Assembly: GCA_030596025.1 (NCBI GenBank)
Contig: JAUVKW010000014.1
Coordinates: 1-32,884, forward strand
DNA from: Bacteroidota bacterium
Lineage (GTDB): Bacteria > Bacteroidota > Bacteroidia > Bacteroidales > VadinHA17
Direction: 5' to 3'
Length of the DNA: 32,884 nt
This document shows, one piece after another, positions 24,487 to 31,964 of the stretch; position 1 is the first letter of the stretch, and each line of letters starts with the position of its first letter. The translations under genes and the position numbers were made by a program. The notes beneath the pieces were generated by a model. That model was not told the origin of the DNA. It saw nothing but the letters and a program-made list of their open reading frames with translations, and did not search any database.

Positions 24487-26109
24487 TTATTGCTTTACTT
24501 TTCTTACAGAATCCAATAAAGTACCATCCACCCATTTAATTACGGCAACAATATCTTCTTCCAATTTTGGCTTTTCAGGTTTTCCGCAAATCTTTTCAGC
24601 TTTGTCTTGAAGCTCTTCTATGGTCATAATTGGTAAACCAGATCCTTTTACAGCTTTGATAAGATCCTTGCGTCCTGGATTTATTGCTATTCCTCTTTCA
24701 GTAACAACAACATCTATCAGTTCCCCGGGACCGCAAAGTGTAGTTACTTCATCAACAATTACCGGAATTCTGTCCCTGAAGAGGGGAACAGGAAGAATTA
24801 CTGTCTTTGAAAACAGACAATTCTGCCAGCCACCCATTCCATGTAAAAGATAGCCATCGGAATGTGTAACAACATTTGCATTGAAGTTGACATCAATTTC
24901 TGTTGCGCCAAGAATTACCACATCCACAAGGCTGGCAAAATTCCCTTTACCATGATAGTTATAAGAAGTAAATGGACTGGTTGAAATATGTCGTGAATTT
25001 TCTGCCATTGAACGCACACCTTCAAGATCAAATGTCTGTCCATCAAGAATGTATTCTACAAGACCTTCTTCAAGCATGGAAACCAGATATTTGTTGCTCC
25101 CCCCCCTGGCAAAACGGGCCTTAATTCCTTTTTCCTTCATTATTTTCCTGAAGAACTCTCCAACAGCCAGAGATGTCCCTCCTGCACCTGATTGAAAAGA
25201 AAAGCCCTCCTTAATTATTCCTGCATGCTCACAAAACCTGGCTGTTAATTCTGCCAGGAAAAGCCTGTCAGGACTTTTTGTTATTTCAGTGGTTCCTGAA
25301 ATAATCTTTTCGGGGTCTCCCAGTTTGTCAACCTGCACGGTATAATCAACATAGTTACCCTGAATTTGCCATGGATAACATGGAAATGGAACCATATTAT
25401 CAGTAACAACAATAACTTTTTCAGCATATTGGGAGTCAGCCAGGGCAAAACCCAATAATCCTGTAGATGAAGGTCCTGACAATCCATTTGCATTGCCAAA
25501 TGAATCGGCACAACCTGCTCCAATAACAGCAATATCTATCTGTACTTCACCATCCTGAACAGCCTGATATCTTCCACCATGTGATCTGAGAACACCAAGG
25601 CCTTTCATTTTACCTTCTGAGGTAAATCTTCCCAGAGGCCCGTTCATGCTTCCTTCAATATGGTGAATGGTACCGTCTTTCAGGTATTGAATTAAGTGCT
25701 CATGACATGGAAATGAGGCTGAGGGAAACCAAATTAAGTTCTTTACCCCCAGGTCATGTGCAATGTCAAATATTTGATTGGCAAGATAATCTCCATTTCG
25801 GAAATGATGATGGGTAGAAATGGTCATACCGTCCTTTAAACCAGCCTTTACCAGTGCTTCTCTCAAACTCGCAAGCAGCTTATTTCCATCATCCGGATAG
25901 TCGGCACAGGAAACTCCCCTGGGTCCGAATTTTGCAGTTTTTGGCTTATGCTTTGCAATCCCTTTATATGGAGTTTGAGCTTCTCCGTTCACATTTTTCG
26001 GAACCCACCTGCCAGCAGCATTCTTAACTTTTTCAGAATCTTTCAATATCATTTGGTATTTGTAATTTGGTGCTTCATTAATAAAATCCCTGACTTTATG
26101 AACAGACAC
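24487..26109 (-). CDS. citF: Citrate lyase alpha subunit CitF
   Basis: CitF is the CoA-transferase-type subunit of citrate lyase. It swaps acetyl for citryl on the acyl-carrier subunit before CitE cleaves citryl-ACP to oxaloacetate and acetyl-ACP. The 540-residue protein has family landmarks: MTISTHHHFRNGDYLAN, NLIWFPSASFPCHEHLI, the glycine-rich FSFQSGAGGTSLAV and DVVILGATEIDVNFNANVVTHSDGYLLHGMGG. The reading frame opens with GTG at 26109, directly after an in-frame TGA. The GTG is seven bases past the citDE stop, consistent with translational coupling. The next Met is residue 20 (ATG 26052), which is a weaker alternative. A citramalate or other 2-hydroxyacyl substrate cannot be excluded by sequence alone. 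Confidence 0.93.
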   Translation of the reverse strand: MSVHKVRDFINEAPNYKYQMILKDSEKVKNAAGRWVPKNVNGEAQTPYKGIAKHKPKTAKFGPRGVSCADYPDDGNKLLASLREALVKAGLKDGMTISTHHHFRNGDYLANQIFDIAHDLGVKNLIWFPSASFPCHEHLIQYLKDGTIHHIEGSMNGPLGRFTSEGKMKGLGVLRSHGGRYQAVQDGEVQIDIAVIGAGCADSFGNANGLSGPSSTGLLGFALADSQYAEKVIVVTDNMVPFPCYPWQIQGNYVDYTVQVDKLGDPEKIISGTTEITKSPDRLFLAELTARFCEHAGIIKEGFSFQSGAGGTSLAVGEFFRKIMKEKGIKARFARGGSNKYLVSMLEEGLVEYILDGQTFDLEGVRSMAENSRHISTSPFTSYNYHGKGNFASLVDVVILGATEIDVNFNANVVTHSDGYLLHGMGGWQNCLFSKTVILPVPLFRDRIPVIVDEVTTLCGPGELIDVVVTERGIAINPGRKDLIKAVKGSGLPIMTIEELQDKAEKICGKPEKPKLEEDIVAVIKWVDGTLLDSVRKVKQ

Positions 26110-26116
26110 TCAATAC

Positions 26117-27337
26117 TTATTTATCCCCACTTCTCTGCCACAAACCTAAATCCACAGCCAGGTCTATTGTTTTTTGTGCCCTCTTAACAACCGGAGCATC
26201 TATCATTTTTGTTCCAAGAGAAACAACACCCAGGCCATCCTCCTTTGCTTTTTGGAAAGCTTTAACAATTCGTGCAGCCTTATCAACTTCATCCATACCC
26301 GGGTAAAATTCTTCATGAATTACCTGTATTTGTCTTGGATGTATGCAACCCATACCTTCAAAACCCAGGGATCTGGATTTCCTGACCGCTTGCCTTAATC
26401 CCTCCATATCACCAACATCCGAAAAGACCGAATCAATTGGTTGAATTCCTGCAGCTTTACATGCATTTATCAATCTGGTGCGGGCATACAGGGACTCATC
26501 TCCATTGCTGGTGCGCCTTACACCTATATCTGCTGTGTAATCTTCCAGTCCTATTGCCATAGCCACAATGTTTGTTGAAGAAACAGCAATTTCAAAGGCT
26601 TTCTCCACACCCAGGGCACTTTCAATAATCGGCATCAGGAAAACAGTGTCATCTTTTACTGCCAGTTCTTTCAGTCTGGAAATTTCATCCTCTAATTGAA
26701 TTATTTGCTCAGGGCCCTCACATTTGGGCACCAGGATTAAATGTACATTATGATTTACAATAAATGCAAGATCTTTTAAACCGGACGGGAACTGGTTGAT
26801 TCGAACCATTCTTTCCGTACCCATAAAATCAAGTTGCCGTAAAGCATTACGCACCAAAAACCTAGCTTCATATTTCTTTTCTGGTGATACAGAATCTTCA
26901 AGATCCAAAATCAAGCCTCCAGGCTGATGAACTCCTGCATTCAACATTAAACTGGGAGAGTTGCCTGGTAAATACAGGCGGCTAAACCTGAACCTTTCAT
27001 TTTCTGATTTATAAAGATTTTCTGCAATCATATCAGGTAAAAATTCCTTTTCTGACTTAACATGGGACTTAATCAGAGCTTCCATTCTTGCTAAAATAAC
27101 AAAAGGTAAAGCACCGGAATCCTGAATGGTAACACGGGCGTTCTTTATCTCAAAAAAAACTAAGATATCTCTAAGCATCTCACGAATAGACTTTCCATAC
27201 ATGGAATTCACTTTAGAGTTCAAATCAATCTCTAAACCCCCTTTTGTCAGAAGTCCCATGCTTACCTGACAATCGGAGCGAACCCCGGGGCCGTAATTAC
27301 CAAAAATTAATTTATCCTTTTCTATTGGCTTTGCCAT
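26117..27337 (-). CDS. citE: Citrate lyase CitD-CitE fusion (ACP + beta)
   Basis: This 406-residue protein joins two subunits that are separate in Klebsiella and E. coli. Residues 1-95 resemble the acyl carrier protein CitD. They share the segment DSGALPFVILARMEALIK (73-90) with the CitD motif D-K-G-A-L-x-x-x-L-R-A-R-x-E-A. They also have a VRSDC segment, where S21 is the likely prosthetic-group site. A linker (96-117) leads to a CitE lyase domain (about 118-406) of the HpcH/HpaI-CitE TIM-barrel family. That domain has LYLPGNSP, GLILDLEDSV (E147, D148), the LMPIIESALGV strand and AIGLEDYTADIGV. citF follows seven bases after the stop. No ligase or prosthetic-group genes (citC, citX, citG) are in view. 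Confidence 0.9.
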   Translation of the reverse strand: MAKPIEKDKLIFGNYGPGVRSDCQVSMGLLTKGGLEIDLNSKVNSMYGKSIREMLRDILVFFEIKNARVTIQDSGALPFVILARMEALIKSHVKSEKEFLPDMIAENLYKSENERFRFSRLYLPGNSPSLMLNAGVHQPGGLILDLEDSVSPEKKYEARFLVRNALRQLDFMGTERMVRINQFPSGLKDLAFIVNHNVHLILVPKCEGPEQIIQLEDEISRLKELAVKDDTVFLMPIIESALGVEKAFEIAVSSTNIVAMAIGLEDYTADIGVRRTSNGDESLYARTRLINACKAAGIQPIDSVFSDVGDMEGLRQAVRKSRSLGFEGMGCIHPRQIQVIHEEFYPGMDEVDKAARIVKAFQKAKEDGLGVVSLGTKMIDAPVVKRAQKTIDLAVDLGLWQRSGDK

Positions 27338-27357
27338 ATTATTCTGATTGAGTTATA

Positions 27358-27365
27358 CAAATATA
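27358..27365 (-). promoter_or_regulatory. Putative citDE-citF promoter -7 box
   Basis: The minus strand reads TATATTTG, a perfect TAnnTTTG, 20 bases upstream of the citDE ATG. This gives a very short leader. The -33 region is only T-rich. The box suggests that citDE starts its own transcript rather than depending on the epimerase gene upstream. Confidence 0.5.
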
Positions 27366-27425
27366 ATCATAGTCTTTATGAAAAAACAGAAATCCACTGT
27401 ATCGATTTGCTTTTCTGCAAACGGC

Positions 27426-27839
27426 TTAATCCTTGTTTTTATTTTCGCATATTTCAATAAGTACTCCCGATGTAGAACCAGGGTGAAGAAATGCTATATC
27501 CAGGCCATCTGCACCTTTTCTCGCTTTCCTGTCAATCAAATCTATTCCGGTTTCCTTCATATTATGAAGTCTTTTTTCTATATCATTCACCGCAAAAGCA
27601 AGATGATGCATTCCTTCTCCTCTCTTTTCAATAAACCTGGCAATGGGGCTGGCAGCTTCTGTAGCTTCTAACAATTCAATTTTAGTTTCTCCAATTTTAA
27701 AAAATGCAGTTCTTACCTTTTGGTCTTTCACTTCCTCAATCTTATAACATTTATAACCCAGCATTTCTTCGTATAATGAAATGGATTTATCCAGGTCTTT
27801 CACTGCAATTCCGATATGTTCAATCTTAGATGGCTTCAT
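27426..27839 (-). CDS. mce: Methylmalonyl-CoA epimerase
   Basis: This enzyme interconverts (R)- and (S)-methylmalonyl-CoA, linking B12-dependent methylmalonyl-CoA mutase with propionate formation or use. The 137-residue length and vicinal-oxygen-chelate fold fit the family. The N-terminal EHIGIAVKDLDKSISLYEEMLGY (metal His at residue 8) is typical. ETKIELLEA, GEGMHHLAFAVNDI (second metal His) and SGVLIEICE (final metal Glu) complete the metal site. The ATG at 27839 is the natural start. It has its own promoter and lies 88 bp upstream of citDE on the same strand, so loose co-expression is possible. Confidence 0.95.
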   Translation of the reverse strand: MKPSKIEHIGIAVKDLDKSISLYEEMLGYKCYKIEEVKDQKVRTAFFKIGETKIELLEATEAASPIARFIEKRGEGMHHLAFAVNDIEKRLHNMKETGIDLIDRKARKGADGLDIAFLHPGSTSGVLIEICENKNKD

Positions 27840-27896: not shown

Positions 27897-28026
27897 GAAT
27901 GATAATTGTCAAATATCTATGCCTTGGCTGGAACTGCTAAATTCACACACAAACAAATATACATATCTTAAGTATCTGACATATAATTAAGATCACAAAC
28001 TCAAGCAAATTCCTAAGAAGAATAAA

Positions 28027-28236
28027 GGTGATCTATCTCACCTAATTACCATAATACATATCATTTGCATTTGAATCGATGGGAATCAATAAACGAATAC
28101 ATTTATTTTCAGGTTTATTGGAGACTGCTGAAACATCTCCACATGTACCTTTTTTGGACATAAAACCACCAGGTTATGTGCCGGGAGAAGTCCATATGAG
28201 CAATTATATGGAAGCGGAATAGAATTAAATATATTG
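28027..28236 (+). repeat. Tandem repeat unit 1 with dyad GGTGATCTATCTCACC
   Basis: First of three related units in the long intergenic region between mce and the methyltransferase operon. It begins with the 16-base dyad GGTGATCTATCTCACC (28027-28042; arms GGTGA/TCACC, centre TCTATC). An ATAC motif follows exactly 70 bases after the dyad start (28097). The second half (ATTATATGGAAGCGGAA, about 28204-28220) resembles the end of unit 2 (GTATGGCGGAA). It is the most diverged unit. Confidence 0.65.
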
Positions 28237-28445
28237 GGTGATCTATCTCACCATTAACTGAGAAGAGATGTCACTGTAAGAAAGATTTATTGAGGGGTAA
28301 TATATTATACTTTTAACTTGGGTATTTTATATGCCTTAGAAAAATGATTTTGAGCTGATTTAAAAAGAGGTAAGATCTGTAAGATTTTATTCAGGGGATA
28401 ACATACTAAAAATTTTAAGTATGGCGGAAACTTAGAGGCATAAAA
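28237..28445 (+). repeat. Tandem repeat unit 2 with dyad GGTGATCTATCTCACC
   Basis: The unit begins 210 bases after unit 1 with an identical 16-base dyad (28237-28252). ATACTTTTAACTTGG lies at +70 (28307) and TTATATGC at +90 (28327). Between dyad and ATAC it aligns without gaps to unit 3 (21 of 30 bases match just after the dyad). No ORF is supported here. Confidence 0.72.
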
Positions 28446-28565
28446 GATGATCTATCTCATCATTTTGAGATAATTGATATCACTAAAAGAAGTGAAACAT
28501 AATTGAATAAAAGAAATACTTTTAAATTGGACTAATTATATGCTCTTTAGAAAGAAACAAATTTA
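28446..28565 (+). repeat. Partial repeat unit 3 with dyad GATGATCTATCTCATC
   Basis: The unit begins 209 bases after unit 2. Its dyad is GATGATCTATCTCATC (28446-28461): positions 2 and 15 have both changed (G to A, C to T), so pairing of the arms is kept. ATACTTTTAAATTGG lies at +70 (28516) and TTATATGC at +90 (28536), exactly as in unit 2. It ends about 35 bases before the methyltransferase ATG, so its conserved 3' part could hold the operon promoter. Confidence 0.72.
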
Positions 28566-28598
28566 AAATAAATAATAAAACCCTAAATTCTATTAATT

Positions 28599-29588
28599 AT
28601 GGAAACAACACAAGTGCAAGTAAAAGTCGCCAGAACACTGACTGAAAACCAGGTTGCCTTTTTATCACGTATGCTTGATCAGGGCGGACCCGAGGAAAAA
28701 GATTACAAAAGATTATGTTTATTAGTAGACAGTCTTGATGAGTCGGGCCATGAGGAAATGCGCGACATCATGGCTCCCCTTCTTACAAACCTTGATACAA
28801 TGCATGGTTTTGCTGCCTCAAAACCTTATGGTTATGCAGGAGATTTTGAGATGATTGAAATGATTTATGAAAACCGTACTACCAGTGATACACGATTTCA
28901 GAAATGGGATCAATGGTGGCACAGTGAATCTGCCTCAAGGGCAGTAAAAAACAGAAAGGATTTTTTCATTAATCTAATGACCGAACTCGAAGCAAAATCA
29001 AATGAACCAAAAGAAGTATTAATTCTGGGATCAGGGCCAGCCACCGATGCTTATGAATATCTAAAGGCTAATCCAAATTCAAAAATCAGTTTCGATCTTC
29101 TTGACCTCGATGAAAATGCCATTGCCTACGCAAAGAAAAGAAATGCTGAATTTCAGGATAAGATGAACTTTTTTAAGATTAATGTGTTGAGATTCAAAAC
29201 ACATAAACAATATGACATGATATGGAGTGCCGGTTTGTTTGATTATTTCAAAGAAAAGCATTTTATTTACTTGTTGAAAAAATACTCGGCTTTCCTGGCT
29301 GAAAATGGGGAAATGGTAATTGGTAATTTCTCAAAAAATAATCCTACCAGAAACCTGATGGAGGCCATAATTGAATGGGACCTAAACTATCGTTCAGATT
29401 ATGAATTAATAGAAATGGCAAAAAAAGCTGAGTTTGAAAGTGAACAAATCAAAGTGGACAGGGAGCCCCTGGGAGTAAATTTGTTTCTTAGAATAAACAA
29501 AGATACAGGAGTAAATGAAAACAAAGTAGAAATTGCACAGTTACGCGAGGAACCAAAGTCAAGTATTGAGGCGTTTTCTATGAATTGA
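28599..29588 (+). CDS. PhcB-like SAM-dependent methyltransferase
   Basis: This 329-residue protein has an N-terminal helical domain (1-130) with the motif KPYGYAGDFEMIEMIY (75-90) and a C-terminal Rossmann methyltransferase domain (about 135-300). The latter shows SAM motif I VLILGSGPATD (140-150), acidic FDLLDLDENAI after strand 2, and DMIWSAGLFDYF after strand 4. From memory, the GYxGD segment plus this Rossmann domain is typical of proteins annotated as extracellular factor (3-hydroxypalmitic acid methyl ester) biosynthesis, the PhcB group. PhcB makes a fatty-acid methyl-ester signal in Ralstonia. Here the gene opens an operon with a sensor kinase 21 bases downstream and a response regulator, which supports a signalling role. 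The substrate is not proven, and a generic small-molecule methyltransferase is the alternative. Confidence 0.75.
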   Translation: METTQVQVKVARTLTENQVAFLSRMLDQGGPEEKDYKRLCLLVDSLDESGHEEMRDIMAPLLTNLDTMHGFAASKPYGYAGDFEMIEMIYENRTTSDTRFQKWDQWWHSESASRAVKNRKDFFINLMTELEAKSNEPKEVLILGSGPATDAYEYLKANPNSKISFDLLDLDENAIAYAKKRNAEFQDKMNFFKINVLRFKTHKQYDMIWSAGLFDYFKEKHFIYLLKKYSAFLAENGEMVIGNFSKNNPTRNLMEAIIEWDLNYRSDYELIEMAKKAEFESEQIKVDREPLGVNLFLRINKDTGVNENKVEIAQLREEPKSSIEAFSMN

Positions 29589-29609
29589 TAGGGGTCCTTG
29601 CAAAGACCG

Positions 29610-31589
29610 ATGAAGAAAAAGAATAAATTATTTTACAATTTGTTTCCTGCTGGTTTAACCTCATCTCACGGGATGAGGTTAAATCCTATTACCCTTTCCT
29701 TTAAGGCTGCTCAAAAGCCCCTTGAAAAAGAATTTCTTTATAATTATTATACTCAATCCTTATTTCAATTCCGGTTTGCCCTTGTCCTGGCTCTGATCTT
29801 TTATGATTTATTTGCATTTCTTGATTCAGCAGTGGTTCCCGATGCTGATAATATCTTATGGATTGTCAGATTCTATATTGTGACCCCCGTTCTCCTCGTG
29901 GCCATGGGCCTTTCATTCACTAAATCATTTCATAAATATATGCAGGTCATCATAATGGTGGCCTGGGGAATTACGGGTTTTGGGATCATACTAATGACCC
30001 ATATTGTTTCTGCAAAAGGAGTATACTCCTACTATGCCGGACTGATACTAATATTTATTTTTGGCTATACTTTCATAAGGGCCAGATTCATTAATGCCTC
30101 AATTATTGGCTGGTTGCTGGTAATTATTTACGAGGTTGATGCCCTGTGGTTCGCACAAATTCCCCGGGACACTTTTATGATCAATAATTTCTTTTTTATC
30201 GGGGCCAATATCATCGGAATGTTCACGAACTATTCCCAGGAGCTTAGCTCCAGAAAAGATTTTTATTTGAAAAAACTATTGGTTACTGAACAAGAGAAAG
30301 TAACTGCTGCAAATGAAGCTCTTGAAAAAAGAGTAAAAGAAAGAACTGTTCAACTAACTAAAACAAATATTGAATTAAGCAAAGAAATAGAACAACGGAA
30401 ACTTCATGAACAGGAAAGGAATAAACTCGAGGTCCAGTTACTTCAATTACAGAAAATGGAAACCATTGGGACCCTGGCCGGTGGAATTGCTCACGATTTT
30501 AATAATATCCTGACCCCCATCCTTGGTTATACTGAAATGGCAATGGAGGAACTTGATGAAGACAGTAACCTGATGTATGATATTGAACAAATCTACAATG
30601 CGGCAATAAGAGCAAAAGATCTGGTTCAGCAAATTCTCACATTCAGCCGGCAGGTTGAAGTGGATAAAAAGCCACTTCAGATGCACCAGGTAATTACTGA
30701 AGTAATGAACCTGGTAAAAGCTTCTTTCCCATCCAATATTCAGATTGTACAAAATCTTGATCCAAGCTGCGGAACGATAATGGCAGATGCCACGCAAATT
30801 CACCAGGTGATCATGAATCTTTCCACTAATGCCTACCATGCCATGATGGATGCAGGAGGCACATTGAAGATAAGCCTTAAATCCATAGAGGCAAATCAAG
30901 CTATGGTTAGAAAAATTCCGAAATTAGAATTGAAGACATATGTATGTACAACCATACAGGATACCGGTCATGGCATGGATAAACATACTTTAACCAGGAT
31001 TTTTGAACCGTTTTTTACAAAAAAGGAAGTTGGTGTCGGATCGGGTCTGGGTCTTTCTGTTGTACATGGAATTGTGAGTAGCTACGATGGAGCCATAACC
31101 GCTGAAAGCGAAATAGGTAAAGGCACTACCTTTAATATTTATCTGCCCCAGTACAGTTCAAAGGATAGTAATAATAATATGAATCGCATAAAGGTTCAAA
31201 AAGGGAAAGAACATATTTTGTTTGTTGATGATGAAGAAGATATCACTTTTATGGGAAAAAGAATGCTGGAAAGCCTTGGATATTCAGTAAGCGTACATAC
31301 AAAAAGCCTGACAGCACTGGAAGAATTTACCTCAAATCCTGGCATTTACGATCTTCTTGTAACAGACCAGACTATGCCCTACTTATTGGGTACTGAATTA
31401 ATAAGAAAAGTCAGGGAGTTAAAACCCGGAATAAAAGCCATCATTATTACCGGCTATGGCGACACCATCACTGAGGAAATGAAAATCATGGAGAAAATTG
31501 ATGCCGTAGTGATTAAGCCGCTAATTTTAAGTAACTTTAGCAATCTGATAAGAAAGGTACTTGACGAGAAAAACTATAGAAAAAATTAG
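29610..31589 (+). CDS. Hybrid sensor histidine kinase, six-TM input
   Basis: This 659-residue kinase has an N-terminal membrane domain of about six helices (residues about 48-215) with only short loops. It would suit sensing of a hydrophobic or membrane-dissolved ligand. A coiled coil follows (about 225-282). Next is a HisKA domain with phospho-acceptor H295 (GGIAHDFNNILTPILGY), then a HATPase_c domain with N, G1 (DTGHGMD) and G2 (GSGLGLSV) boxes. Last is a C-terminal receiver with phospho-acceptor D586 (LLVTDQTMP) and K near the end (VVIKPL). The ATG at 29610 is chosen over the TTG at 29598. The stop is three bases before the response-regulator ATG. A six-TM kinase beside a PhcB-like gene parallels PhcS. 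Confidence 0.9.
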   Translation: MKKKNKLFYNLFPAGLTSSHGMRLNPITLSFKAAQKPLEKEFLYNYYTQSLFQFRFALVLALIFYDLFAFLDSAVVPDADNILWIVRFYIVTPVLLVAMGLSFTKSFHKYMQVIIMVAWGITGFGIILMTHIVSAKGVYSYYAGLILIFIFGYTFIRARFINASIIGWLLVIIYEVDALWFAQIPRDTFMINNFFFIGANIIGMFTNYSQELSSRKDFYLKKLLVTEQEKVTAANEALEKRVKERTVQLTKTNIELSKEIEQRKLHEQERNKLEVQLLQLQKMETIGTLAGGIAHDFNNILTPILGYTEMAMEELDEDSNLMYDIEQIYNAAIRAKDLVQQILTFSRQVEVDKKPLQMHQVITEVMNLVKASFPSNIQIVQNLDPSCGTIMADATQIHQVIMNLSTNAYHAMMDAGGTLKISLKSIEANQAMVRKIPKLELKTYVCTTIQDTGHGMDKHTLTRIFEPFFTKKEVGVGSGLGLSVVHGIVSSYDGAITAESEIGKGTTFNIYLPQYSSKDSNNNMNRIKVQKGKEHILFVDDEEDITFMGKRMLESLGYSVSVHTKSLTALEEFTSNPGIYDLLVTDQTMPYLLGTELIRKVRELKPGIKAIIITGYGDTITEEMKIMEKIDAVVIKPLILSNFSNLIRKVLDEKNYRKN

Positions 31590-31592
31590 AAT

Positions 31593-31964
31593 ATGGCAAG
31601 AGTTCTGATCATTGACGATGAGCCTAATATTTTACTTATGCTCAAGAAAATGCTTGAAAGGTCAGGCTATGTCGTTGATATGGCCATAAATGGCAAGGAA
31701 GGTCTGGAGCTATTTGCCAAATTCCCTGCTGACTTAATTATTACTGATATTGTAATGCCTGAAAAAGAAGGCCTGGAAACTATCAGGGAAATTAAGAAGG
31801 ATCATCCTCATGTGAAAATTATTGCAATTTCAGGTGGGGGAAGAATTGATTCCACTGAGTATCTTGCCTCTGCCCGTTTATTTGGCGCCTCCAGGATCTT
31901 TCAAAAACCATTCAAACAAAAAGAAATAGTTGCGGCAGTTAAGGAGCTTCTGTCCGAACAGTAA
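31593..31964 (+). CDS. Single-domain CheY-like response regulator
   Basis: This 123-residue protein is a lone receiver domain. It has the acidic pair D8/D9 (LIIDDEP), phospho-acceptor D52 (DLIITDIVMP), a Ser at the switch Thr/Ser position (IIAISGGG) and the conserved K105 (IFQKPF). There is no DNA-binding or enzymatic output domain, so it must act through protein contacts or as a phosphate relay. It starts three bases after the hybrid kinase stop, making it the obvious partner: H295 to D586 and/or D52. A hairpin 16 bases after the stop closes the operon. Confidence 0.93.
   Translation: MARVLIIDDEPNILLMLKKMLERSGYVVDMAINGKEGLELFAKFPADLIITDIVMPEKEGLETIREIKKDHPHVKIIAISGGGRIDSTEYLASARLFGASRIFQKPFKQKEIVAAVKELLSEQ

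Follow-up and report, generated by a model that had tools for sequence, protein, structure and literature searches.

Three palindromes of the CRP type lie in the 760-bp region ahead of a three-gene array in the window, by which we mean the whole stretch of 32,884 nucleotides of DNA from an uncultured Bacteroidota bacterium analysed here, and these candidate operator sites are the main new result of this study. The array consists of plus-strand genes, tightly packed according to the ORF calls, for a methyltransferase (MT), a hybrid sensor histidine kinase (HK) and a stand-alone receiver protein (RR) (Table 1). Judging from the sequences, we lean towards the view that they constitute a self-contained small-molecule signalling circuit of a PhcB/PhcS-like kind, with an acyl (methyl-ester) signal and with CRP-like output and feedback. 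Its supporting basis is homology, gene order, co-occurrence and motif sharing, and all parts of the circuit can be named, DNA sites included.

Table 1. Features of the MT-HK-RR locus and its upstream region, in window coordinates.
Feature	Position	Strand	Basis
Operator 1 (candidate), GGTGATCTATCTCACC, CRP-type dyad GGTGA-N6-TCACC	28027..28042	+	motif evidence
Operator 2 (candidate), GGTGATCTATCTCACC, 210 bp after operator 1	28237..28252	+	motif evidence
Operator 3 (candidate), GATGATCTATCTCATC, 209 bp after operator 2, 153 bp before MT start	28446..28461	+	motif evidence
MT (329 aa), putative signal synthase; class I SAM-dependent methyltransferase, KPxGYAGD family	28599..29588	+	ORF, Pfam, profiles, tree, model
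HK, hybrid sensor histidine kinase; 659 aa with the ATG start, 663 aa with the TTG start	29610..31589	+	ORF, Pfam
Sensor domain of HK (residues 37-221) with six transmembrane segments; homologue of the PhcS input domain	29718..30272	+	profile match, hydrophobicity, model
Predicted phospho-accepting H295 of HK, in GGIAHDFNN	30492..30494	+	sequence, HisKA match
C-terminal receiver domain of HK, candidate phospho-acceptor D586	31215..31535	+	Pfam, sequence
RR (123 aa), stand-alone receiver protein without DNA-binding domain; D52 as candidate phospho-acceptor	31593..31964	+	ORF, Pfam, sequence

HK most likely starts at ATG 29610, 21 bp past the MT stop, and not at the listed TTG 29598, because HK proteins of relatives start at the equivalent position. 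With gaps of 21 bp between MT and HK and 3 bp between HK and RR, a single MT-HK-RR transcript is likely. Pfam assigned MT to the class I methyltransferases, HK to HisKA, HATPase_c and Response_reg, and the 123-aa RR to a single Response_reg match. Together with a GYAGD motif at MT residues 78-82, and with an HK N-terminus that contains six hydrophobic segments and was modelled with six helices, these assignments bore out a sequence-only reading of the locus, which had described a GYAGD-motif methyltransferase, a hybrid kinase with a compact six-transmembrane (six-TM) input domain and a lone receiver as third gene. That reading had also remarked that no obvious phcR-type gene was present and that the kinase carried its own receiver instead; no phcR-type gene was found downstream of the array among the window ORFs, and HK does carry a Response_reg domain.

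Within the GYAGD motif, G78, Y79, G81 and D82 were invariant in an alignment of 14 relatives, and position 80 was A or P. Profile comparison matched MT to PhcB, the enzyme that makes 3-OH MAME/PAME (PMC8578825), with an E value of 3.8e-33 and 27% identity over 240 columns, and the PhcB catalytic-domain motifs KPxGYAGD, GxGPA, GLFDY and W.L..R were present in MT. The alignment starts at PhcB residue 210, with only about 55 residues of MT ahead of the match, and the N-terminal domain of PhcB (about 180 residues) is absent from MT. In the tree, the PhcB sequences formed one clade (100/95) with MT outside it. MT belonged to a Bacteroidota clade whose sister was a set from green sulfur bacteria (98/92), and this clade was nearer, over long branches, to a polyketide synthase (PKS) methyltransferase domain than to PhcB. 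A joint clade of MT and PhcB was not rejected (AU test p 0.08), the deep order of the tree being unsure because of the long branches. Since MT lies outside the PhcB clade and lacks the N-terminal domain, it should not be called PhcB; of the PhcB-type synthase proposed earlier, the homology of the catalytic domain stood, and the identity of clade and of overall domain make-up did not.

Family annotation could not settle the membership of MT, because NCBIfam held no model recognising PhcB of Ralstonia pickettii, and a search of the PDB by sequence returned, apart from generic class I methyltransferases, no solved structure related to the MT family. The predicted model of MT (mean pLDDT 71) has helices at residues 16-133, followed by a Rossmann domain at 138-300 with higher confidence; it is uninformative on the substrate, because its fold search matched generic class I methyltransferases only, e.g. 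Coq5 and ChlM. Circumstantial indications come from MT-family members in acyl contexts, one being the last domain, behind an ACP, in an Enterobacter PKS, and others adjoining fatty-acid desaturases in Deinococcus and in one further genome (G313). The PKS, encoded on an Enterobacter ludwigii plasmid (L171:5634-8771), ends in KS-ACP-MT with a methyltransferase domain of the window MT's family; no thioesterase domain was matched in this protein, and its product is possibly released as a methyl ester. Another related MT is fused to an N-terminal cNMP-binding domain and is encoded beside a SpoIIE-type phosphatase gene (L159:5541-6998). For the window MT itself, we infer a 3-hydroxy fatty-acid methyl ester as the product.

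The kinase core of HK resembles CckA/VirA-type hybrids. Its membrane domain, for which a relationship to PhcS had been suggested, proved homologous to the PhcS sensor in profile comparison (E 2.1e-6 over 181 columns), whereas unrelated membrane proteins of the window, compared as controls with the window sensor family, gave E values of 0.1-0.54. A plasmid of the cyanobacterium Pseudanabaena encodes, next to an MT, a kinase that shares the HK sensor domain (E 4.7e-16). The HK sensor model (pLDDT 76) had no convincing match in the PDB, and a joint profile of the HK sensor and PhcS gave a single weak match, to the membrane region of adenylate cyclase 8 (E 0.035), which agrees with a weak AC_N match in Pfam.

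A different six-TM kinase accompanies MT in the genomes of family f42, which encode FMO protein and are thus green sulfur bacteria. Their MT, of the sister clade, adjoins a six-TM hybrid kinase as in the window; this kinase, of about 705 aa, has two receivers and a core closest to LuxN, no adjoining lone RR was seen, and its six-TM sequence appears unrelated to that of HK (no match of the window sensor to the green sulfur six-TM set, which includes no authenticated CqsS sequence; probability 0.5%, E 0.11). CqsS of Vibrio and LqsS of Legionella likewise combine a compact six-TM input domain with pairing to a signal synthase, but the synthase in those systems is a PLP-dependent enzyme, whereas that of the window is a methyltransferase. 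Six-TM domains of the CqsS/LqsS design bind lipophilic ligands, and kinases like CqsS have been listed for both Chlorobia and Bacteroidetes in a published cluster analysis (PMC4821796); we found no prior description, in the open-access literature, of such kinases paired with the MT family. The MT family recurs beside six-TM kinases in Burkholderiales, on the Pseudanabaena plasmid, in Bacteroidota and, with the LuxN type, in green sulfur bacteria.

It is conceivable, although we consider it unlikely, that MT makes some other acyl-derived signal, such as a methyl ether, an alpha-methyl compound or a non-hydroxylated ester, which HK senses within the same circuit. The separation of the MT clade from PhcB would fit such a product, as would the pairing of green sulfur MTs with kinases of the LuxN type, which have a six-TM domain without sequence relationship to PhcS, and the O-methyltransferase-like relative behind the ACP of the PKS; the retention of PhcB catalytic-domain motifs in MT and the homology of the HK sensor to that of PhcS argue against it.

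The array was surveyed in 60 relatives, mostly represented by fragmented and in several cases incomplete assemblies. MT was present in 20 of them, among which is the window's own genome, and HK followed directly in 19 of the 20; in the other (G021) the contig ends after MT and HK starts another contig. RR came after HK in every complete locus, so that the three genes do stay together in related genomes, as an operon of the kind first proposed should. The order MT-HK-RR is kept while the flanks vary between genera, and these three genes are therefore the unit. A chance set of neighbours was rejected, as the genes recur in order wherever a contig covers them, the exception being G011 (L257), which keeps HK-RR without any MT and may harbour a signal eavesdropper or a decaying system. 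In one genome with a single contig (G005; L043, L044), MT is broken in two, with its C-terminal part beside HK-RR and the other part 178 kb away, owing to either an inversion breakpoint or a misassembly. Divergent from MT in the window (24487-27839, minus strand) are genes for a CitF-like protein, for a CitE-like protein that carries a CitD-like ACP domain at its N-terminus, and for a glyoxalase/epimerase; these are kept beside MT in several genera.

The sensor domain was detected in 20 of 20 MT-positive and 2 of 40 MT-negative relatives (Fisher 5.5e-14, without phylogenetic correction), G003 and G011 being the only MT-negative ones with a strong match. In a wider, evenly drawn sample of 345 Bacteroidota genomes (in the GTDB sense, green sulfur bacteria included), MT was found in 12 and the sensor domain in 9. 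The window-type sensor domain also occurs on other Bacteroidota kinases in genomes without MT, and together with G011 this means that a self-made ester is not what the domain senses in every case. Its occurrence without MT also lends something to a reading that we regard as rather improbable, namely that MT has a housekeeping role, modifying a membrane lipid, a quinone or a cofactor, and is regulated by HK-RR as a sensor of membrane or redox state; the CRP/FNR type of the operator recogniser described below, whose family is frequently linked to redox or cAMP, and the purely generic fold matches of MT would suit it as well. The patchy distribution of MT (12/345) argues against a housekeeping role, however, and a synthase-receptor pair accounts better for the repeated association of the MT family and six-TM kinases across four lineages.

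The CRP-like dyads ahead of MT amount to three matches in the window where 0.13 were expected, and TGA-N6-TCA is present in all three. The strict pattern GRTGANNTANNTCAYC was found at five places in the 3.1-Mb own genome, three of them ahead of the MT operon, one in the gap that separates a CRP-type gene from a divergent receiver gene (C143:445) and one upstream of an SprB-repeat adhesin and PorP/SprF (C220:16599), while a reversed control of the pattern gave zero matches in that genome. The upstream region (28024-28598) looks like degenerate tandem units of about 210 bp with one dyad each, and a congener (G001) has the same three-site spacing (209, 212). On contig C220, a pair of operator-like dyads with a separation of 23 bp (L180:5577-5615) is located about 180 bp upstream of the gene for a 1484-aa SprB-repeat adhesin of the T9SS type, with PorP/SprF next; this adhesin is a possible gliding or adhesion target of the regulator, as a hint from a single genome.

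Among MT-positive genomes with upstream sequence, 15 of 19 had the dyad upstream of MT. Other sites in relatives were mostly within ORFs or ahead of unrelated genes, and only the MT operon and a CRP-like gene recurred as motif-bearing loci. That the operators serve the divergent epimerase/CitE/CitF genes, with the MT operon regulated otherwise, is very doubtful. In its favour, the divergent gene at 27426-27839 (minus strand) and operator 1 are 188 bp apart, and the site in G014/G023 is about 900 bp from MT and closer to the divergent gene. Against it, in G049 and G010 a different, co-directional gene precedes MT, so that the site there, still 133-179 bp upstream of MT, is unlikely to serve a divergent gene, and members of the genus have their nearest site at -153/-154 relative to MT.

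The CRP-type gene encodes a protein with cNMP_binding and HTH_Crp_2 domains, and its orthologues (at least 39% identity) had a dyad 70-152 bp upstream in 16 of the 19 cases with upstream sequence. With a scoring matrix made solely from these 16 promoter sites, the three window sites reached 21.4, 21.4 and 21.0 bits, and no other window position exceeded 10.8 bits. In the MT-negative genomes G003, G016 and G025, GRTGATNTANNTCAYC, near-identical to GRTGANNTANNTCAYC, occurs only ahead of the CRP-like gene. An orthologue was present in 14 of 15 genomes with an MT-upstream site compared to 1 of 4 without (p 0.016, without phylogenetic correction); G020, G031 and G042 had neither the site nor the orthologue. 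The recognition helix, TTKESFIR, retains the E and R residues through which CRP makes its contacts with GTGA. In the own genome the gene is probably split across the ends of contigs C143 and C80, which carry near-identical N-termini. At loci L179, L249, L251, L252 and L186, from several genera, a gene for a single-domain receiver and one for a PiT-like transporter are oriented divergently to the CRP-type gene, and the dyad sits in between. We consider the operator sites and the CRP-like regulator, neither of which the sequence-only reading had noticed, to be the likely output of the MT-HK-RR system.

A scan of named genomes recovered 80 loci of the Burkholderiales type, nearly all in the phcBSRQ layout, including that of R. 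pickettii (L096). The window shares with the PhcBSRQ systems of Ralstonia and Cupriavidus (3-OH PAME / 3-OH MAME) a homologous MT catalytic domain and six-TM sensor domain, the gene order synthase-kinase-receiver, and receiver proteins without a DNA-binding domain. In addition to the differences of MT noted above, HK is a hybrid with its own receiver, which PhcS of R. pickettii is without; PhcR (receiver + kinase) has no counterpart; the lone receiver replaces PhcQ, which has a C-terminus of about 200 aa behind its receiver; and the candidate regulator is CRP-like, in contrast to the LysR-type PhcA. As far as sequence comparison can tell, the window system would work like PhcB/PhcS, yet it is no member of PhcBSRQ. 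PhcS is thought to hand phosphate to receiver proteins without a DNA-binding domain (PMC11960443), and PhcQ, one such protein, binds PhcA (PMC13320629).

In the circuit that we favour, MT would methylate an acyl substrate, probably a 3-hydroxy-acyl group on ACP or the free acid, to give a membrane-permeant ester. Given the homology of its sensor to that of PhcS, HK would sense this ester inside the six-TM bundle and, as its domain make-up suggests, would control through H295 the phosphorylation of its own receiver and of D52 in RR. RR might then contact the CRP/FNR-type regulator encoded elsewhere; this link is speculative and is drawn by analogy with PhcQ and PhcA. From the motif evidence, the CRP-type protein would bind the three palindromes of the operon and its own promoter, closing a feedback loop.

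We know of no well-described small-molecule cell-cell signal in Bacteroidota or green sulfur bacteria with known synthase, receptor and target promoter, and none was found in the open-access literature; nor did that literature yield a description of a methyl-ester quorum system in Bacteroidota, in agreement with the sequence-only reading. We tentatively suggest that the locus may represent a lipid-ester quorum sensing native to Bacteroidota, with its own synthase clade and a CRP-like regulator dedicated to it through feedback, and, as part of the same suggestion, that one synthase family is paired with two kinds of sequence-unrelated six-TM receptor, PhcS-like in the window and LuxN/CqsS-like in green sulfur bacteria. 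If true, this would extend Phc-type lipid signalling beyond Burkholderiales and would show a synthase family switching its receptor partner.
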